This document shows positions 519 to 9,081 of a DNA stretch of 64,000 bases, one piece after another (positions within the stretch are counted from its first letter, which is position 1; each line of letters opens with the position of its first letter). This DNA comes from Bradyrhizobium zhanjiangense. GTDB lineage: Bacteria > Pseudomonadota > Alphaproteobacteria > Rhizobiales > Xanthobacteraceae. Where the stretch lies: the NCBI RefSeq assembly GCF_004114935.1, contig NZ_CP022221.1, forward strand, positions 5,539,001 to 5,603,000. The letters run 5' to 3'. Both the position numbers and the translations under genes were made by a program. The notes beneath the pieces are model-generated. The model was given only the letters and a program-made list of their open reading frames with translations. It did not search any database and was not told the origin of the DNA.

Positions 519-1214
519 TCAGTTCAGTGCTGTAATTCGCATGGTATTCCCCTGCAGCCAGGCCTGCGCCGGCTTGCCGCGCAAGGCGGCGTCGATGTCG
601 TCGGCAGTCTGATAAAATCCATCGATTGCAAGCAGTTCGGCCTCGATCTTCTGACAATAGATGCGCGCGCTGGTGTGACCGTTCACGCCCGCCATGGCGC
701 GGCCGCGCAGCGCGCCGTAGACGTGGATGGAGCCCCCGGCGACCACCTCGGCACCGGAGCCGACCGAGCCGAGAATGGTGACGTCGCCTTCGGGGAAGAT
801 CACGGTCTGGCCCGAGCGCACCGGGTTTTCGAGCAGCAGCGAGGTCGGCTTGGCTGTGACTTTGTCAGCCTTCTTGGGCGCGCTCGGCTCGACCACGCAG
901 CTGCGCCCGCCCGAGAGCAGCGGCGGCATGGATGGCGTCAGCCGGCCCTCCTCCACGCCCTCAATGCCGAGCACGCGGATGTTGCGGTCCTGCAGGCTGG
1001 TCAGCAGATGGGTGATGCCGGCTTGGCTGAGGTCGACCGAGGACAGGTCGATCACCACGGGCCGGCCGGCAAAGAAGCCCGGCGAGCGCGCAATCGTGGC
1101 ATCGATCTCCTGGAGCCAGTCCTGGATCGGGACCGTCGGCACGAACACGAAGGCCACATAGGAGCGCCCGCGCAGGCGCACCATCTGGCGTTGGACTTTT
1201 GCTGCAGCCTCCAT
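519..1214 (-). CDS. minC: Septum formation inhibitor MinC
   Basis: MinC inhibits FtsZ polymerisation and works with MinD. The 231-residue product has the two expected parts: an N-terminal domain (about residues 8-110, with the VVIDLSSVD strand) and a C-terminal right-handed beta-helix domain (about 130-205) rich in glycine turns. The C-terminal part includes the FPEGDVTILGSV and GGSIHVYGALRGRAMAGV segments seen in all MinC proteins. The linker between them is long and rich in K, P and S. First gene of a minC-minD unit transcribed leftward. Length and domain order are normal. Confidence 0.96.
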   Translation of the reverse strand: MEAAAKVQRQMVRLRGRSYVAFVFVPTVPIQDWLQEIDATIARSPGFFAGRPVVIDLSSVDLSQAGITHLLTSLQDRNIRVLGIEGVEEGRLTPSMPPLLSGGRSCVVEPSAPKKADKVTAKPTSLLLENPVRSGQTVIFPEGDVTILGSVGSGAEVVAGGSIHVYGALRGRAMAGVNGHTSARIYCQKIEAELLAIDGFYQTADDIDAALRGKPAQAWLQGNTMRITALN

Positions 1215-1538: not shown

Positions 1539-2555
1539 CTACTTCTTCACCTTGCTCGCATCCATCTTGATGCTCGGATCCAGCATCTTGGTCGTGAACG
1601 CCGTCGTCACGTCGAACGGCTTCTCCATGCCGAGATAGGTCTGGACCAGCTCGTAGTCCTTCTTCATCCGCTCGCCGTCGATCCAGCCGAGCGCCTTCGT
1701 CGTCGTGAACTCGTCGGTCATCAGGAACTTGATGCGTTCCCACTGGCGCTCCTGGTTCTCCTTGTCGAGACCGGAGACCTGATCGAGCAGCGCTTTCAGG
1801 CACGGCGTGACGTCGGCGACGCAGGCCGCAAAGGCCTTCTGCGTGACGCGCACGAACGCTTCGACCACCTTCGGATTCTTCTGGAGATAGGCGCCGTTGA
1901 CGATCAGCGAATTGCCGTAGGGGTTGAGCCCGATGTCCTTCCAGTTGACGTAGCCGAGATCGGGCCCGAACTCGATCACCTTCAGATCATGCTCGTTGTA
2001 GAAGTCGCTGATGATGTCGACGGTGTGGCTCTTCAGCGCCGCGATCTTCGCGGTCGGCCCGACATTGACGAAGCCGACGGAGTCGGGCGCAAGGCCTGCG
2101 GCCTTGGCGAAGGCCGGCCACATCACGCGCGAGGCATCGCCTGGCGGATTGCCGATCTTGTGCCCGGCGAAATCCTTCACCCCGTTCACGCCGTAGCTTT
2201 TCAGCCAGTAGAAGGTCTGGCCGGTATTGGCGTAGACGCTCATCACCGCAACGGCGTCGGCGCCCTTGCTCTTGGCCACCAGCATGGTGGCGAGATCGGC
2301 GACGCCGAACGGCGAGCCGCCGGAGCCGACCTTGGCGGCGGAGACACCGGAGCCCTTGCCGGTCTCGATCGTCAGGTCGATCCCGGCCTTCTCGTACCAG
2401 CCTTGCGCCTTGGCGTAATAATAGGGCGAGTGATCGGCCGTCGGCGTCCAGTTCAGGATCAGATTGACCGCCTCGCCCGCGCTCGCGGACACCGCCGACA
2501 CACCGAGCATCAGGGCCAACACCAGGGCAGAGCCCGCCGCCTGCAAATGCTTCAT
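1539..2555 (-). CDS. ABC importer substrate-binding protein, NMT1/THI5-like
   Basis: Periplasmic binding protein of 338 residues for an ABC importer. An N-terminal signal peptide (about residues 1-26, ending ASA) is followed by the LNWTPTADHSPYYYAKAQGW segment typical of the NMT1/SsuA/ThiY group, whose members bind thiamine-pyrimidine precursors, sulfonates or related small molecules. The substrate here is unknown. The ATG at 2555 is preferred over one 15 bases upstream because AGGAGAGG sits just before it. It is divergent from the tetR gene, with about 100 bases between the starts. The matching permease and ATPase are in the rightward operon beyond tetR, so one regulated transport locus is inferred. 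Confidence 0.9.
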   Translation of the reverse strand: MKHLQAAGSALVLALMLGVSAVSASAGEAVNLILNWTPTADHSPYYYAKAQGWYEKAGIDLTIETGKGSGVSAAKVGSGGSPFGVADLATMLVAKSKGADAVAVMSVYANTGQTFYWLKSYGVNGVKDFAGHKIGNPPGDASRVMWPAFAKAAGLAPDSVGFVNVGPTAKIAALKSHTVDIISDFYNEHDLKVIEFGPDLGYVNWKDIGLNPYGNSLIVNGAYLQKNPKVVEAFVRVTQKAFAACVADVTPCLKALLDQVSGLDKENQERQWERIKFLMTDEFTTTKALGWIDGERMKKDYELVQTYLGMEKPFDVTTAFTTKMLDPSIKMDASKVKK

Positions 2556-2638
2556 CGCACCTCTCCTCATTGCCGCGACCCCGGCTTGTCGCTCTCCCCA
2601 TGTGAGGATACCAATGCAACAAGCCCGCCCTCAACTTG

Positions 2639-2654
2639 TCAACTGTTTGGTTGG
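2639..2654. promoter_or_regulatory. Candidate TetR operator O1
   Basis: The 16-mer TCAACTGTTTGGTTGG is an imperfect palindrome lying between the divergent binding-protein gene and tetR, ending two bases before the tetR ATG at 2657. It shares TCAAC-N4-TGGTTG with the perfect palindrome at 3305-3320 on the other side of tetR. The position suggests autoregulation and control of the divergent binding-protein gene. Binding is inferred from symmetry and placement only. Confidence 0.6.
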
Positions 2655-2656
2655 AA

Positions 2657-3304
2657 ATGCCCGCAAAACGATCTGGCGACACCGTGCCGCAGCGCCGCGA
2701 TCCCGTCGCCACCCGCAACAAGCTGCTGACGGCGGCGCGCCTGGAATTCGCCCGGCACGGCTTTGCGGGGGCCCGCGTCGACGAGATCGCCGAGCGTGCC
2801 GGCGTCAACAAGCAGCTCGTCTATCACTACTTCGGCGACAAGGACGCGCTCTACCTCGCCGTGCTCGAATGGGTCTATGAGGACATTCGCGAGCAGGAGC
2901 GCAGGCTCAATCTCGAAGGCCTGCCGCCGGAAAAGGCGATCCGCAGGCTGATCGAAGCCTCATTCGACCACCTCGCGGCAAACCCTGATTTCATCGTGCT
3001 CTTGAACGACGAGAACCGCGGCGGCGCCCGCCACGTCCGCGGCTCGAGGCGGTTGGAAGCGATGCATTCCCCGCTGGTGAGAAGCGTCTCCCACATCCTC
3101 AACGAGGGGGTGCGCGCGGGCGTGTTCCGCAAGGGGATCGATCCCGTCCAGCTCTACATCTCGATCGCGGGCCTCAGCTATTTCTTCTTCTCCAACACGC
3201 CGACGCTGTCGGCGATCTTCGGCAAGGACCTTTCGAGCCGCGCCCAGCGCCGCGCCCGCCGCAGGCACGTCGCCGATCTGGTGCTGCAGTCGCTCCGGCC
3301 ATAA
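2657..3304 (+). CDS. TetR family transcriptional regulator
   Basis: One-component repressor of 215 residues. The N-terminal TetR helix-turn-helix spans about residues 15-60: RNKLLTAARLEFARHGFAG, then VDEIAERAGVNKQLVYHYF and DKDALY. The C-terminal ligand-binding part is divergent, with a C-terminal region resembling TetR_C domains. A TTG at 2636 could extend the frame by seven codons but would run through the operator-like palindrome at 2639-2654, so the ATG at 2657 is preferred. It sits between a divergent ABC binding-protein gene and the permease operon, with operator-like palindromes on both sides. It probably controls both units; the inducer is unknown but may be the imported compound. Confidence 0.93.
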   Translation: MPAKRSGDTVPQRRDPVATRNKLLTAARLEFARHGFAGARVDEIAERAGVNKQLVYHYFGDKDALYLAVLEWVYEDIREQERRLNLEGLPPEKAIRRLIEASFDHLAANPDFIVLLNDENRGGARHVRGSRRLEAMHSPLVRSVSHILNEGVRAGVFRKGIDPVQLYISIAGLSYFFFSNTPTLSAIFGKDLSSRAQRRARRRHVADLVLQSLRP

Positions 3305-3320
3305 TCAACCAACTGGTTGA
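3305..3320. promoter_or_regulatory. Candidate TetR operator O2 upstream of the ABC operon
   Basis: TCAACCAACTGGTTGA immediately follows the tetR stop codon and is a perfect 7-bp inverted repeat around a 2-bp centre. It lies 65 bases before the permease GTG at 3386. The same TCAAC-N4-TGGTTG pattern occurs at 2639-2654 before tetR. Together these are the expected layout for one repressor governing both transcription units; no binding data are available. Confidence 0.65.
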
Positions 3321-3385
3321 AACTTCCCTGAAGGCCGGTTAGGCTCGTCGCAGCGGCAGGTGACCGCGGCAACAGGGAGCAACCG

Positions 3386-4153
3386 GTGAGAGACGCGGCC
3401 CGCACCTCGCGCAGCTTTGCGATCATCCTGATCGTGCATCTCGCCGTGCTCGTGCTCTGGCAGGTCATGGTCGATGCTTTCCACGTGCCGAAATTCATCC
3501 TGCCCTCGCCGCTTGCCACCGTGCAGACGCTGGGAACCGCAGGCTATGCCTGGGGCGCCAACACGCTGGTGACCGCCATCGAGATCCTCGGCGGCTTCGC
3601 ACTCGGCGCCTTCGTCGGCGTCGCGCTTGCGGTGATCTTCAGCTGGGCGCCGTTGCTCAGTCTCGTGCTGCTGCCGCTGTTCGTGACGCTGAACATGATC
3701 CCGAAGGTCGCGCTCGGCCCGCTCGTCATCGTCTGGTTCTCCTACGGCATCGTGCCGAACATCCTGATCGCCTTCAGCATCTGCTTCTTTCCGATCCTGC
3801 TCACCACCGCGCGCGGCCTGCGCGAGGTCGAGCCTGACCTGCTCGATCTCGTCAAATCGCTGCGCGGCTCGCGCTGGACGCTGTTCCGCAAGATCCAGCT
3901 GCCGGGATCGCTGCCTTACATCTTTTCCGGCATGAAGGTCGGCGCCATACTTGCGGTCGCCGGCGCCATCGTCGGCGAGTTCATCGCCTCGGAGCGCGGG
4001 CTCGGCTACCTCATGATCCAGGTGCAGTCCTCGCTCGATACGCCGGCGATGGTGATGGCGGTCGTGCTGCTGACGCTGCTCGGGGTCGCTCTGTACGGCC
4101 TGGTGCTCGCCCTCGAACGCATGTTCGTGGTCGGCGACGCCAGGCAGAACTAA
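3386..4153 (+). CDS. ABC transporter permease (NMT1/SsuC type)
   Basis: Inner-membrane permease of 255 residues with about six hydrophobic helices, starting with a helix at residues 10-33 (FAIILIVHLAVLVLWQVMVD). The EAA loop typical of BPD_transp_1 permeases is seen around residues 150-190 (SLRGSRWTLFRKIQLPGSLPYIFSGMKVG). The P-x-F-x-LPSP motif after helix one (VPKFILPSPL) is typical of SsuC/ThiX-like permeases. The start is GTG with GGGAG about eight bases upstream. First gene of a rightward five-gene operon ending with the ATPase. It should pair with the divergent binding protein and the ATPase at 7075. Confidence 0.93.
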   Translation: MRDAARTSRSFAIILIVHLAVLVLWQVMVDAFHVPKFILPSPLATVQTLGTAGYAWGANTLVTAIEILGGFALGAFVGVALAVIFSWAPLLSLVLLPLFVTLNMIPKVALGPLVIVWFSYGIVPNILIAFSICFFPILLTTARGLREVEPDLLDLVKSLRGSRWTLFRKIQLPGSLPYIFSGMKVGAILAVAGAIVGEFIASERGLGYLMIQVQSSLDTPAMVMAVVLLTLLGVALYGLVLALERMFVVGDARQN

Positions 4154-4170
4154 GACCAAGGACCAAATCC

Positions 4171-5208
4171 ATGCTGCTCACCCGCCAGACGCTGCCGAAG
4201 ACCATTCCGGATGTCGCTGCGCTCGACGAGCTCCTGTGCCGGCCGACGCAGGCGCTGATCGACGACCTCGCCAAGGTTGAGGGCGACATCATGATCCTCG
4301 GAGTCGCCGGCAAGATGGGGCCAACGCTGGCGGGGCTCGCGAAAGCCGCCGTGCCGGACCGCCGCGTCATTGGCGTCGCGCGCTTCAGCGATGCCAGCGT
4401 CAAAGACTGGCTGCATGCGCGCGGCGTCGAGACCGTCAATTGCGATCTGATGGACGAGAGCGCAATTCAAACGCTGCCGAAGGCGCCCAACATCGTCTTC
4501 ATGGCCGGCCGCAAATTCGGTGCCGAGGGCGATCTGTCGCTGACCTGGGCGATGAACGCGCATGTGCCGGCCCTGGTCGCGCAGGCCTTCCCCTCGTCCC
4601 GCATCGTGGCGTTCTCGACCGGCTGCATCTATCCCTTCGTACCCATCGACGGCAAAGGCTCGACCGAGGACATGGCGCCGAACCCGCCCGGGGAATACGC
4701 GCAATCCTGCGTCGGCCGTGAGCGCATGTTCGAGTATTTTTCGCGCAAGTTCGGAACACCGGGCCGCCTGTTCCGGCTCAATTACGCGATCGACATGCGC
4801 TATGGTGTGCTGCACGATATCGCCACGAAGGTGCTCACGGGCACGCCGATCGACGTCAGCCTGGGCCATGTCAACTTCATCTGGCAGGGCGATGCGTCCT
4901 CCCAGGCGCTGCGCTGCCTTGCCCATTGCACGACGCCGACCTCTCCGATCAATGTCAGTGGCCACGAGATTCTGGCGGTGCGCGATCTCGCGCAAAAATT
5001 CGGCGCAAGGTTCGGCCGCGCGCCGGTGCTGACAGGCAAGGAAGAGCCGACGGCATGGCTGACCGACACGTCGAAGGCAGTCGAGCTGTTCGGCTTGCCC
5101 GTCGTCGACACCGAGCAGTTGATCGCCTGGACCGCGGATTGGGTCTCCCGCGCAATGCCGAGTCTCGGGAAGCCCACCAAATACGAGGTGCGCGATGGAC
5201 GCTACTGA
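4171..5208 (+). CDS. NAD(P)-binding epimerase/dehydratase-like protein
   Basis: A 345-residue Rossmann-fold protein resembling the extended SDR (epimerase/dehydratase) family. The dinucleotide motif GVAGKMG is at residues 44-50, a strand ends in VAFSTGCIYPF (about 146-156), and the active-site tyrosine is at Y176. The Y-x-x-x-K catalytic motif reads YAQSC: the lysine is replaced by C180, so ordinary redox chemistry may be altered or lost. It follows the permease by 17 bases and overlaps the next gene by 14 bases, so co-translation is likely. It is probably an enzyme acting on the compound imported by the locus; the substrate is unknown. Confidence 0.82.
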   Translation: MLLTRQTLPKTIPDVAALDELLCRPTQALIDDLAKVEGDIMILGVAGKMGPTLAGLAKAAVPDRRVIGVARFSDASVKDWLHARGVETVNCDLMDESAIQTLPKAPNIVFMAGRKFGAEGDLSLTWAMNAHVPALVAQAFPSSRIVAFSTGCIYPFVPIDGKGSTEDMAPNPPGEYAQSCVGRERMFEYFSRKFGTPGRLFRLNYAIDMRYGVLHDIATKVLTGTPIDVSLGHVNFIWQGDASSQALRCLAHCTTPTSPINVSGHEILAVRDLAQKFGARFGRAPVLTGKEEPTAWLTDTSKAVELFGLPVVDTEQLIAWTADWVSRAMPSLGKPTKYEVRDGRY

Positions 5209-6016
5209 TGGCCCGCCCATCATCAAGCTCGGCGTCGAGGACGCGATCGCCGGGCTGGCGCTGTCGACGGAAGCGCACTGGAACCAGACCGAAGAGGACT
5301 GGCGCGTTTTCCTGCGCGACGGCGTCGTGTTCGGCATCCGCGACGGCGCGCGACTGGTGGCGACCGCAGCACTGCTGCCCTATTCCGGCAACAACGCCTG
5401 GATCAGCATGGTGCTGGTGTCGGCAACGCATCGCCGCCGCGGCCTTGCAACACGCCTCGTCGATGCCTGCCTGGAAACAGCGCGCAGGAATGGCCTGACG
5501 AGCTGGCTCGATGCGACGCCCGACGGCGCCAATGTCTACGGGCCGCTCGGGTTCACACCGACCCTGCAGTTGCGCCGGCTGAAGCTGAAGAAATCTGCGC
5601 AGGCGTCCGCGCCGGTACCATCCGCCGCAACGCTCGAGGCGCTTTGTGCCCGGGACCGGCGCGCCACAGGGTTCGACCGGACCGCTCTGCTGACCGCCTT
5701 TGCACAGCGCTCGGGGTCACGCATCGTCACTGCAAACGGATGCATCGCGTTGGTCCGCGACGGCAGAACCGCGCGCCATATCGGCCCCTTGTTCGCAAAT
5801 CATGCAGCCGAAGCGCTGGCTCTCATTCACGCGATCGCGGGGTCCGAGGACCGGCCGCTCCTGCTCGACGCCATCGCCTCGCAGGGCGCACTCCTGGAGG
5901 GATTGATCGCCTCGGGCTGGACCATCGAGCGGCCCTTCCAGCGCATGCGGTTCGGCCCCGCCACCATTGCCGCTGAGGAAATGCCATTCGCCGTCGCCGG
6001 CCCTGAATTCGGATAG
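5195..6016 (+). CDS. GNAT family N-acetyltransferase
   Basis: A 273-residue protein with an N-terminal GNAT fold. The acetyl-CoA loop is visible as RRRGLATRLVDA at about residues 79-90, after the ISMVLVSATH strand, and the segment ANVYGPLGFTP resembles the C-terminal part of the domain. The second half (about 145-273) looks like a further domain related to GNAT fusions. The start overlaps the end of the epimerase-like gene by 14 bases and has GAGG upstream. The next gene begins 6 bases after its stop. Role inferred from context: acyl-CoA-dependent modification in the imported-compound pathway. Substrate unknown. Confidence 0.85.
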   Translation: MDATDGPPIIKLGVEDAIAGLALSTEAHWNQTEEDWRVFLRDGVVFGIRDGARLVATAALLPYSGNNAWISMVLVSATHRRRGLATRLVDACLETARRNGLTSWLDATPDGANVYGPLGFTPTLQLRRLKLKKSAQASAPVPSAATLEALCARDRRATGFDRTALLTAFAQRSGSRIVTANGCIALVRDGRTARHIGPLFANHAAEALALIHAIAGSEDRPLLLDAIASQGALLEGLIASGWTIERPFQRMRFGPATIAAEEMPFAVAGPEFG

Positions 6017-6022
6017 GACATC

Positions 6023-7078
6023 ATGCACCACAGCCAGATCAACAGCGACATCCGCAAGCTGATCGCCGAGGGCACAGTGCTGCCGGCACATCCCCTCGCC
6101 CTCACTGCCGAGCGCCAGCTTGACAAGACGCATCAGCGCGCGCTGACGCGCTATTACATCGATGCCGGCTCAGGCGGCCTTGCCGTCGGTGTGCACACGA
6201 CGCAGTTCGCGATCCGCGACGTCGGCCTCTACCGTCCCGTGCTCGAGCTCGCTGCCGAGACCGCCGCGAGCTGGACCAAGCGTCCATTGGCGATGGTCGC
6301 AGGCCTTGCCGGCCCAACCAGCCAGGCCACCGCTGAGGCCCGCACTGCACGCGACATCGGCTATCACGCCGGCCTGCTCAGCCTCGCCGCGATGAGGAAC
6401 GCCTCCGAGGACGAGATCATCGCGCATTGCACCGCGATCGCCGCCGAGATTCCACTGGTCGGCTTCTACCTCCAGCCGGCCGTGGGCGGCGTCATTCTGT
6501 CGAGCCGGTTCTGGCAGCGCTTCGCTTCGATCGACAACGTCATCGCGATCAAGATCGCGCCGTTCAACCGCTACAGGACTCTCGACGTGCTCCGCGGTGT
6601 CGCGGCCGCCGGCGCGCTCGACCGCGTCGCGCTCTACACCGGCAATGACGATCATATCCTGCTCGACTTGATGCTGCCGTTCGACCTGCGCGACAACGGC
6701 GTCACCACACGCACCTATTTCAAAGGCGGCCTGCTCGGCCATTGGTCGGTGTGGACGGCGAGCGCCATCAAACAGTTCGAGCGCTGCAAGGCCGCGCGGC
6801 ACAAGGACAGCGTTCCGGCTGACCTGCTCGCACTCGATGCTCGCGTCACCGACTGCAACAGCGCCTTCTTCGACGTCGCCAATAATTTTCACGGCTGCAT
6901 CGCGGGCTGCCACGAGGTGCTGCGACGCCAGGGCCTGATGAAAGGTTTGTGGTGCCTCGATCCGAACGAGGGCCTCAGCCCCGGCCAGAAGCAGGAGATC
7001 GATCGCGTCACTCGCGAGCACGCCGATCTCAGCGACGATGCCTTCGTCGCCGCCAACCTGAACAAATGGCTGGCATGA
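6023..7078 (+). CDS. Dihydrodipicolinate synthase/N-acetylneuraminate lyase family protein
   Basis: Class I aldolase of the DapA/NanA superfamily, 351 residues, slightly longer than the usual 290-310. The Schiff-base lysine is probably K177 in VIAIKIAPF, and the strand PLVGFYLQPAVGG carries the likely catalytic tyrosine Y149. The VHTTQF segment at residues 58-62 is in the place of the GTTGE-type loop. It is not the biosynthetic DapA by context: it is the fourth gene of an ABC-transport operon, and the ATPase start codon overlaps its stop (ATGA). Probably a retro-aldol or condensation enzyme for the imported compound. Reaction unproven. Confidence 0.88.
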   Translation: MHHSQINSDIRKLIAEGTVLPAHPLALTAERQLDKTHQRALTRYYIDAGSGGLAVGVHTTQFAIRDVGLYRPVLELAAETAASWTKRPLAMVAGLAGPTSQATAEARTARDIGYHAGLLSLAAMRNASEDEIIAHCTAIAAEIPLVGFYLQPAVGGVILSSRFWQRFASIDNVIAIKIAPFNRYRTLDVLRGVAAAGALDRVALYTGNDDHILLDLMLPFDLRDNGVTTRTYFKGGLLGHWSVWTASAIKQFERCKAARHKDSVPADLLALDARVTDCNSAFFDVANNFHGCIAGCHEVLRRQGLMKGLWCLDPNEGLSPGQKQEIDRVTREHADLSDDAFVAANLNKWLA

Positions 7079-7848
7079 CCGAAGAACCCTTCATCAGCCT
7101 GCAAGGCGTCCGGAAAGTCTACCGCAGCGGCGGTGCCGAATTCCTGGCGGTTTCCGACGTCACCATGGACGTGCAGGAAGGTGAGCTCGTCTCGCTGGTC
7201 GGCCCGTCCGGCTGCGGCAAGACCACGGTGATGAAGATTTTGGCCGGCCTGCACGGCGCCGACGGCGGCACCGTGAGAATAGGCAATGCCAAGAGCCCGT
7301 TCGATCCGACCCGCGACATCGGCATGGTGTTCCAGCAGGCGCTGCTCTTGAAGTGGCGCACTATCCTGGACAACGTGCTCTTGCCGGCCGAGATCGTCGG
7401 CCTGCCGATGAGAGCCGCGCGCGAGCGGGCGCGCGACCTGCTCAATCTGGTCGGGCTGGCCGGCTACGAGCAGAAATATCCGCAGCAGCTCTCCGGCGGC
7501 ATGCAGCAGCGCACCGCGATCGCGCGCGCCTTCATCCACGATCCGAAGCTGATCCTGATGGACGAGCCGTTCGGCGCGCTGGATGCGCTGACACGCGAGC
7601 AGATGAATCTGGAGATGCTGCGGATCTGGCGCGAGAGCGGCAAGACCATCATCTTCGTCACCCATTCGATCCAGGAGGCCGTCTTCCTGTCCTCGCATTG
7701 CGCCGTGCTGACCGCGGGACCTGCGAAGATGGCCGATTATTTTGCGATCGACCTGCCCTTCCCGCGCGATCTTCCGCTGAAGACCACGGATGCGTTCGGT
7801 GCGTATGCGCGGCGGATCTATGCGAAGCTGGGTCTGGGGGCGGTGTAG
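7075..7848 (+). CDS. ABC transporter ATP-binding protein (NMT1/SsuB type)
   Basis: Cytoplasmic ATPase subunit of 257 residues. Walker [10 protein letters not shown] is at about residues 43-51, the Q-loop at [11 protein letters not shown], the signature [14 protein letters not shown] at about 140-153, Walker [13 protein letters not shown], and the switch histidine in FVTHSIQEA. The start ATG at 7075 overlaps the upstream stop as ATGA, indicating translational coupling. Last gene of the five-gene operon. With the permease at 3386 and the binding protein at 1539 it completes an ABC importer of the taurine/thiamine-precursor class. Confidence 0.95.
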
Positions 7849-7992: not shown

Positions 7993-9081
7993 TCAGGTCT
8001 TGCGCGTCTTGCTGAGCAGATAATTGTCGTAGAAGTTCTCCGCGATCTGCGTGTAGAACAGCAGCTCCTTCATATAGGCGTCGTGGCTGTCCTTGGTCCG
8101 CTTGAACAGGTCGCTCTTGGCGGCGAGCTCGTTCAAATGGTCCTGGGTCGCGTTGTAGCAGGCTTCCAGCACCGGCTGCGGGAACGCCTTCAGCTCCGCG
8201 CCATTGGCGATCAGGCGCTTGAGCGCCGCCGGATTCACGCTGTCATATTTCTCGAGCATCCAGGCGCCGGCCGCCGATGCGGCCTGGTTGACGATCGCCT
8301 GGTATTGCTTGGGCAGCGAGGCCCATTTCTCGTCGTTGACGACCATGTGCAGCATGGCACCGCCTTCCCACCAGCCCGGGAAATAATAGTATTTGGCGAC
8401 CTTCTGAAAACCGAGCTTCTCGTCGTCATAGGGACCGACGAATTCCGCGGCATCGATCGTGCCCTTCTCGAGGGCGGGATACACATCGCCACCGGCGATC
8501 TGCTGCGGCACGACGCCAAGCCGCGCCAGCACATGGCCGCCCATGCCGGCGATGCGGAATTTGAGGCCTTTGAGGTCGTCGACGGTCTTGATCTCCTTGC
8601 GGAACCAGCCGCCCATCTGGGTGCCGGAATTGCCGCAGAGGATGGCGTGCGCCTTGAAAGGCTTGAGCGCTTCGTTGGTGAGGCCGGCGCCGCCGCCGAA
8701 GTGCCACCACGACTCCTGATGGCGATGGTTCATGCCGAAGGGTGCGCCAGTGGCATAGGCCAGCGCGGGCTCCTTGCCGATGTAGAAATAGAGCGGCGTC
8801 TGCGCCATCTCCACGGAAGCAGTACTGACGGCATCGAGCGCCTGCAGGCCGGGCACGAGCTCGCCGGCGGCGAAGGTCTGGATCTGGAATTTGTTGTCGG
8901 TGGCTTCCGCAACGTATTTCGCAAACGTCTGCGCCGTACCGTAGATGGTGTCGAGCGATTTGGGGAAGCTCGAGGTCAGACGCCATTTGATCTCGGGCGC
9001 GCCTTGCGCGATCGCAGGGGCCGCAACCAGCGTCGTCGCGCCCGCGACCGCGCCGCCCTTGAGGAATGTACGGCGTTTCAT
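7993..9081 (-). CDS. TRAP transporter substrate-binding protein, DctP family
   Basis: Periplasmic solute-binding protein of 362 residues for a TRAP transporter. The N-terminus carries a twin-arginine signal (MKRRTFLKGG, hydrophobic core, AIAQG), suggesting Tat export. The body shows the DctP fold: EIKWRLTSSFPKSLDTIYG near the start, and DDLKGLKFRIAGMGGHVLARLG and YPALEKGTIDAAEFVGPYDD in the middle, close to the TakP-type binding proteins for keto-acids. No DctQ or DctM membrane subunits are next to it, so it is an orphan here. The neighbours are palindromic repeats on both sides. Confidence 0.92.
   Translation of the reverse strand: MKRRTFLKGGAVAGATTLVAAPAIAQGAPEIKWRLTSSFPKSLDTIYGTAQTFAKYVAEATDNKFQIQTFAAGELVPGLQALDAVSTASVEMAQTPLYFYIGKEPALAYATGAPFGMNHRHQESWWHFGGGAGLTNEALKPFKAHAILCGNSGTQMGGWFRKEIKTVDDLKGLKFRIAGMGGHVLARLGVVPQQIAGGDVYPALEKGTIDAAEFVGPYDDEKLGFQKVAKYYYFPGWWEGGAMLHMVVNDEKWASLPKQYQAIVNQAASAAGAWMLEKYDSVNPAALKRLIANGAELKAFPQPVLEACYNATQDHLNELAAKSDLFKRTKDSHDAYMKELLFYTQIAENFYDNYLLSKTRKT

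Follow-up and report, generated by a model that had tools for sequence, protein, structure and literature searches.

Five described systems come close to parts of the locus considered here: the DHDPS/NanA superfamily of aldolases (DapA, NanA, HOGA, MosA); the oxidative non-phosphorylative sugar-acid pathways of the Weimberg/Dagley type and the catabolism of inositol and rhizopine (IolG/MocA, IolE/MocC); TerB, an extended short-chain dehydrogenase/reductase (SDR) of terfestatin biosynthesis; and the regulator RutR, which binds a palindrome of ~16 bp (PMC10891134). We analyzed a stretch of 64,000 nucleotides of Bradyrhizobium zhanjiangense (the window; contig NZ_CP022221.1, positions 5,539,001 to 5,603,000), in which seven genes at positions 1539-7848 encode an ATP-binding cassette (ABC) importer, an SDR, a GNAT-type acetyltransferase, an aldolase and a TetR-family regulator. 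This locus is an uncharacterised cassette of catabolic type, widespread and strongly conserved, in which an atypical SDR is paired with a DHDPS-superfamily aldolase and an operator is predicted; the kind of system is already known, while the combination of genes and the branch of the SDR are new to us. A preceding reading of the locus, made from its letters alone, had described a tightly coupled seven-gene unit, and the coordinates of the confirmed open reading frames agree with it exactly: the SDR and GNAT genes overlap by 14 bases and the aldolase and ATPase genes by 4, with gaps of 17 bases between permease and SDR and 6 bases between GNAT and aldolase. Each of its seven family assignments is also backed by a Pfam match, as given below.

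1539-2570, minus strand: periplasmic substrate-binding protein of the ABC importer, NMT1/THI5-like, 343 aa (Pfam NMT1, 139.6 bits)
2636-3304, plus strand: TetR-family regulator (Pfam TetR_N, 58.5 bits; TetR_C_29, 137.8 bits)
2639-2654, no strand: possible degenerate second operator copy TCAACTGTTTGGTTGG, with 3 mismatches to the palindrome (from sequence)
3305-3320, no strand: candidate TetR operator, perfect palindrome TCAACCA-AC-TGGTTGA, starting at the first base after the tetR stop codon
3386-4153, plus strand: permease of the ABC importer, 255 aa, GTG start (Pfam BPD_transp_1, 94.8 bits)
4171-5208, plus strand: non-canonical extended SDR, 345 aa, with YxxxC replacing YxxxK (Pfam Epimerase, 37.0 bits)
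5195-6016, plus strand: GNAT-type acetyltransferase, 273 aa (Pfam Acetyltransf_1, 49.1 bits; Acetyltransf_18, 41.0 bits)
6023-7078, plus strand: DHDPS-superfamily class I aldolase/lyase, 351 aa, Schiff-base K177 (Pfam DHDPS, 32.5 bits)
7075-7848, plus strand: ATPase of the ABC importer, 257 aa (Pfam ABC_tran, 109.8 bits)

In 289 sampled genomes of the class, the source genome included, the aldolase (E <= 1e-20) was found in 24, with identities of 59-69% in the 23 others, and the SDR profile (E <= 1e-40) matched exactly the same 24 genomes. Each enzyme occurs in 17 of 224 genera, and their co-occurrence has a Fisher p of 1e-35 if genomes are treated as independent, which they are not. Within the genus, 96 of 146 genomes carry the aldolase. 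On a single contig, 165 kb separate the two genes in genome G182 and ~3.2 Mb in G028, and they stand on separate draft contigs, where the true distance is not readable, in G044, G087 and G231; co-inheritance therefore rests on more than adjacency. The aldolase also occurs in 20 plasmid records, and all nine of those examined, from four phyla, hold the pair; adjacent pairs without the importer of the window in the stretch seen were found in plasmid records of Rhodococcus, Glaciihabitans, Streptomyces, Paenibacillus, Mesobacillus and Aquisphaera. Since SDR and aldolase are co-inherited in the same genomes, partly without adjacency, and are paired without the importer, we conclude that they act in one pathway, with the importer and the GNAT as attachments.

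Gene order was compared at 89 loci with the single best match per gene. These comprise 80 named genome contigs, which lean to close relatives because they are the best 80 of 592 confirmed matches, and 9 of the 20 plasmid records with an aldolase match; since two loci are the same Tistrella plasmid stretch (L030, L130) and two more are nearly identical (L028, L073), the locus counts are not independent. All seven genes stand in the window's order at 32 of the 89 loci, among the best-scoring relatives, so the order on which the sequence-only reading had staked its case is kept beyond this genome. Twenty-three of these loci are of the Bradyrhizobium type and nine are others (L073 Ferrovibrio, L086 Maritimibacter, L096, L098, L109 Pseudochrobactrum, L111 Xenophilus, L126 Eoetvoesiella, L130 Tistrella and L131 Sulfitobacter; L111 and L126 are betaproteobacterial). 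At the remaining loci the cassette genes are reshuffled, some are missing, or other transporters take their place. Chance clustering of the seven genes is ruled out by the same-order loci together with the co-occurrence of SDR and aldolase. Among 51 aldolases placed in a tree, the same-order label was given to 13 rows (L028 and L029 share the order but carried no such label), and these do not form one clade, with five changes needed, three of them forced by well-supported branches; this pattern may reflect either inheritance with loss or transfer. A record named Enemella evansiae (Actinomycetota; L125) carries a proteobacterial-type cassette with an inserted amidase, by transfer or by contamination.

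Near the aldolase (at least 7 kb on each side) at 36 named loci outside Bradyrhizobium, we found the SDR at 32, the ATPase at 25, the permease at 24, the binding protein at 23 and TetR at 21; the corresponding figures for 19 loci of the class sample are 16, 17, 17, 17 and 13, and the SDR was present in all 8 plasmid records so counted. The GNAT, which had been taken as part of the unit, does belong to it in the window, but it is near the aldolase at only 24 of the 36, 15 of the 19 and 3 of the 8 loci. Weaker paralogues are included in the counts for the transporter genes, and some fast-evolving GNATs may have escaped detection.

The SDR, which had been called SDR-like from the sequence, has the Rossmann glycine motif and the whole extended-SDR fold, but it lacks the canonical catalytic lysine of the YxxxK pair: Y176 is kept in 32/32 homologues, whereas the lysine position (+4) holds cysteine in 30 and valine in 2. 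K115 and R71 are invariant, and this branch may perhaps use a lysine moved away from YxxxK. A search of the open-access literature for TerB brought up nothing useful. For the aldolase, the earlier description as DapA/NanA-like stands at the level of the superfamily and no further. It exceeds the Pfam DHDPS gathering score (32.5 bits vs. 22.1), its model has the DHDPS/HOGA fold with MosA as a fold relative, and its Schiff-base K177 is present in 34/34 homologues opposite the lysine of NanA 8u8w and DHDPS 3pud in profile alignments. For the catalytic tyrosine the alignments differ: Y149 (32/34) lies opposite that of DHDPS 3pud, F148 opposite that of NanA 8u8w. It falls below the DapA and NanA equivalog cut-offs (19.9 bits vs. 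382 in NCBIfam for NanA), and the position aligned with DapA Arg138 holds V in 32, A in 1 and C in 1 of 34 homologues; NanA likewise has no Arg there in the profile alignment. Two actinobacterial pairs (L132, L136) have valine in place of C180 in the SDR and alanine or serine in place of Y149 in the aldolase, and are flanked by genes for a CoA-transferase, an enoyl-CoA hydratase and a flavin adenine dinucleotide (FAD)-oxidoreductase.

The palindrome TCAACCAACTGGTTGA (3305-3320), of the type TCAACCA-N2-TGGTTGA, adjoins its own tetR gene, as is typical of a local regulator, and 65 bases separate its end from the permease start; TetR likely binds it, as predicted from the DNA. Because the motif was first spotted in these same sequences, its independent support is its position and the empty control. 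We scanned 112 loci plus the window (2.04 Mb) with the reversed pattern as control and found, with up to 1 mismatch, 37 sites in 36 stretches (control 0) and, with up to 2 mismatches, 64 sites near the starts of cassette or companion genes (between 330 bases ahead of the match start and 30 bases within the match) and 7 elsewhere (control 0). At the latter stringency the site precedes cassette genes at 32/32 same-order loci, and these loci and the window are among the 46 of 113 stretches that bear it; being absent from most loci of other gene order, it marks the cassette type and not the aldolase family. Simple inheritance may account for it at the 23 loci of the Bradyrhizobium type. Two-mismatch copies lie in the gap between the binding-protein and tetR genes at six loci (L065-L068, L070, L072), and in the window the upstream TTG codon of TetR is overlapped by the possible degenerate copy at 2639-2654, which makes ATG 2657 the more probable start. 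The earlier proposal of TetR control is supported, with tetR in the unit and a predicted operator next to it. A wider TetR regulon was considered and rejected, as the 9.34-Mb single-contig genome has one exact copy, and three more positions with one mismatch compare with two for the reversed pattern. A promoter and terminator scan gave 0 promoters (0.7 expected) and 2 terminator-like sites (3.8 expected) and was uninformative.

As to the importer, the binding protein scores 139.6 bits against a cut-off of 20.5 for NMT1; the label NMT1/SsuA-type therefore holds in its first half, and "SsuA-type" is too narrow because the protein reaches 54.2 bits against 163.5 for SsuA (and 32.1 against 304.25 for TauA). 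Its nearest solved sequences are 4nmy, an ABC binding protein, and 3ix1, a formylaminopyrimidine-binding protein, at ~63 bits each. Elsewhere the pair is accompanied by tripartite carboxylate systems, named so partly by record annotation, and in Paenibacillus, Glaciihabitans and Streptomyces by carbohydrate ABC systems. Amidase-signature enzymes lie beside cassette genes in 13 of the 113 stretches. In seven related genomes they follow the aldolase after 6-14 bases; they also occur in the gap between permease and SDR at L086 and L125, before the SDR at L077, and behind the enolase-like gene at L074, L085 and L090; at L028 and L073 there is a weak amidase match ~1 kb behind the ATPase. Five of the related amidase-bearing genomes also have an L-fucono-lactonase-like amidohydrolase (64.3 bits vs. 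a cut-off of 400), and other recurrent neighbours are enolase-like proteins, Gfo/Idh proteins and xylose-isomerase-like TIM barrels, the isomerases resembling ketose and keto-acid epimerases far under the cut-off. Candidates for the classes dehydrogenase, lactonase, dehydratase and aldolase come together in some relatives only, with scores under the family cut-offs. Taking together the indirect hints from transporters, amidases, lactonase-like protein and isomerases, we favour an oxidised sugar-like acid, possibly an amide or conjugate, as the substrate.

Some of these enzymes recur in a sister operon of the same genome (~6,794,718-6,803,766; L145 6719-15767), all of it on one strand, whose TetR, permease, binding protein and ATPase are 48%, 36%, 28% and 48% identical to those of the window; the operator was not found in it within 2 mismatches. 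Its enolase-like and Gfo/Idh proteins are 45% and 74% identical to those of L045, its DUF993 protein is 67% identical to that of L036, and its xylose-isomerase-like protein 60% identical to that of L046. The label enolase-like follows the names that records give to homologues ("mandelate racemase", "enolase C-terminal domain-like"); for a representative, Pfam gave no match. Genes of the sister type form one cluster with SDR and aldolase at L036, L045, L094, L099 and L115, and in the class sample DUF993 occurs in 19/24 genomes with the aldolase vs. 6/265 others, and the enolase-like protein in 16/24 vs. 5/265. It may be that a single network is fed by both operons. Almost every genome of the genus has DUF993 (137/146; 94/96 of the aldolase-positive and 43/50 of the aldolase-negative ones), and so weak an association is no proof of a link between the operons. 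What had been read as a single unit is, then, a coupled operon with a related second operon in the same genome.

Further observations concern the relatives of these genes. On pSymB of S. meliloti (L143 6997-12381), genes for TetR, Gfo/Idh, DUF993, a mandelate-racemase-like protein and an isomerase adjoin a sugar ABC importer, that is, the sister enzyme set without SDR or aldolase in the stretch seen. The isomerase at L046 7198-8037 is close to the solved structures 3ju2 (uncharacterized SMc04130) and 3qc0 (395 bits), and one table line of PMC12542648, on S. meliloti, covers the neighbours of a solved isomerase relative. A CrtO-like FAD oxidoreductase is encoded between binding protein and GNAT at L044, L046 (12048-13658) and L115, and behind the ATPase at L089. 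The cassette itself, whose closest named homologues are from Bradyrhizobium, is flanked by minC (519-1214, minus strand) and by a convergent gene for a DctP binding protein of the tripartite ATP-independent periplasmic type (7993-9081), a gene that lies within 5 kb at 12 of 21 Bradyrhizobium-type loci.

We surmise that the cassette works as follows. A TetR dimer would bind the palindrome behind its own gene and silence the permease-SDR-GNAT-aldolase-ATPase transcript, and the degenerate copy in the divergent gap may also place the binding protein under its control; binding of the substrate or a breakdown product to TetR would lead to induction. The NMT1-type importer would then bring in a small organic acid, most likely oxidised, sugar-like and polyhydroxylated, or an amide or conjugate of such an acid. 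The SDR, probably NADP(H)-dependent as R71 predicts, would alter one carbon, in its oxidation state or its configuration, and the aldolase, judging from its fold and residues, would split a 2-oxo acid into pyruvate and an aldehyde by way of a Schiff base on a lysine, with the GNAT in an accessory role on an amine or hydroxyl. We consider the chances evenly balanced that the locus is such a self-contained TetR-controlled catabolic cassette, in which an imported oxidised sugar-like acid is cleaved to pyruvate and an aldehyde. A broader proposal, to which we give slightly less than an even chance, joins both operons: the SDR-aldolase pair would be the obligate core of an undescribed catabolic pathway in Pseudomonadota, Actinomycetota, Bacillota and Planctomycetota, with a new DHDPS-superfamily aldolase acting on a 2-oxo acid that an SDR of relocated catalytic lysine has readied; lineages would add transport and peripheral modules (amidase, enolase-like, DUF993, Gfo/Idh, isomerases), and Bradyrhizobium would split them over two operons with paralogous importers and TetRs. 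The sequence-only reading had proposed import and stepwise breakdown of an unusual small molecule; a coupled, conserved unit of importer and enzymes is supported, and stepwise breakdown is plausible.

Several observations weigh against the catabolic cassette as we have drawn it: 1) the GNAT was not found near the aldolase at 12 of the 36 named loci; 2) the lactonase-like protein and 7 of the 13 amidases stem from one related genome group; 3) the relocated lysine of the SDR is read from sequence alone; 4) in the profile alignment with NanA 8u8w, F148 and not Y149 lies opposite the catalytic tyrosine, T59 (T 27, S 5, A 2 of 34) and not the invariant T60 (34/34) lies opposite the carboxylate-site threonine, and two actinobacterial aldolases have no Y149; 5) the Rhodococcus record has a transporter of the major facilitator superfamily, and the Mesobacillus record shows no importer in the stretch covered; and 6) DUF993 and the enolase-like gene are both missing from three cassette-bearing genomes, all of one genus, which means that the sister enzymes are not always needed and the cassette can stand alone.

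Other functions have to be weighed against catabolism of a sugar-like acid. Among the NCBIfam matches listed (those of the ATPase being the best 25 of 186), no model cut-off is reached by any of the seven proteins; NCBIfam yields nothing at all for the SDR. Uptake or degradation of pyrimidines or thiamine precursors, through a ThiY-type binding protein and a RutR-like regulator, would agree with 3ix1 and THI5 both ranking in the top seven solved relatives of the binding protein, with the amidases beside some copies, and with RutR, which binds a ~16-bp palindrome (PMC10891134), as the best NCBIfam match of TetR. We hold this reading, drawn by analogy, improbable, since all scores are far under the family cut-offs (TetR 60.4 bits vs. 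368 for RutR), NMT1 and TetR are broad families, the annotated recurrent neighbour families include no pyrimidine-ring enzyme, and the common neighbours are sugar-type transporters and isomerases. The RutR box TTGACCANNTGGTCAA resembles TCAACCANNTGGTTGA. An importer of sulfonate or taurine with sulfonate-processing enzymes is highly improbable: the best NCBIfam match of the ATPase is a taurine ATPase and the second best of the permease is SsuC, but they remain at 206.7 bits vs. 357 and 84 vs. 347, the binding protein falls short of SsuA as given above, and no desulfonating enzyme is among the annotated recurrent neighbour families. With all NCBIfam scores below the cut-offs, both the pyrimidine and the sulfonate readings are unsupported.

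It is unlikely, though less so than these, that the aldolase is a known 2-keto-3-deoxy sugar-acid aldolase with an already characterised orthologue and the locus a known pathway in disguise. Neither its fold nor its Schiff-base lysine is unusual within the superfamily, but aldolase and GNAT are under all equivalog cut-offs, the aldolase profile reaches no more than 39.1 bits against PDB sequences, and searches of open-access full text, with subscription literature mostly outside their range, brought up no paper for DUF993 and no title on such a cassette or its families. The earlier statement that no known pathway has this gene set agrees with that result, and the novelty of the cassette is provisional. 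A biosynthetic or detoxifying role, to which TerB as the nearest solved relative of the SDR and the frequent inactivation of toxic amines by GNATs would point, seems to us rather improbable. Returning to the catabolic cassette, the widespread pathway behind it probably lacks a name, given the pair in 24 of 289 class genomes and 9 of 9 plasmid records and the aldolase in 96 of 146 genomes of the genus. With an operator predicted and the enzymes strictly paired, the pathway can be tested, in that the inducer of TetR or the ligand of the binding protein would lead to the substrate, and the cassette could give functions to DUF993, to the enolase-like family without Pfam match and to an SDR branch that lacks the usual lysine.

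Compared with the described systems, the TetR of the cassette shares with RutR the DNA-binding family and a palindrome of ~16 bp (predicted here; PMC10891134 for RutR), but its candidate operator has one exact genomic copy, next to an operon in which no known pyrimidine gene occurs, namely that of the TetR itself. TerB (6nd7, 6d2v), the nearest solved extended SDR, keeps the YxxxK lysine, whereas the cassette SDR does without it and has the invariant K115 instead. Within the DHDPS/NanA superfamily the cassette aldolase is ~60 residues longer than E. coli DHDPS (351 vs. 292), has 13-21% identity in the 50 matches listed, stays under all equivalog cut-offs and has DapA Arg138 replaced. Inositol and rhizopine catabolism differs in that no IolB/C/D was seen in the sister operon, whose Gfo/Idh representative scores 50.5 bits to IolG vs. 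355, but that operon likewise has Gfo/Idh/MocA and xylose-isomerase-like TIM-barrel proteins, and MosA is a fold relative of the cassette aldolase. As for the Weimberg/Dagley-type pathways, the SDR and enolase-like branches here match no characterised family, the Bradyrhizobium cassette has SDR, GNAT and aldolase only, and DUF993 and the amidase are extra; the likeness lies in the loci of some relatives, where an SDR, a lactonase-like protein, an enolase-like protein and a DHDPS-type aldolase come together.

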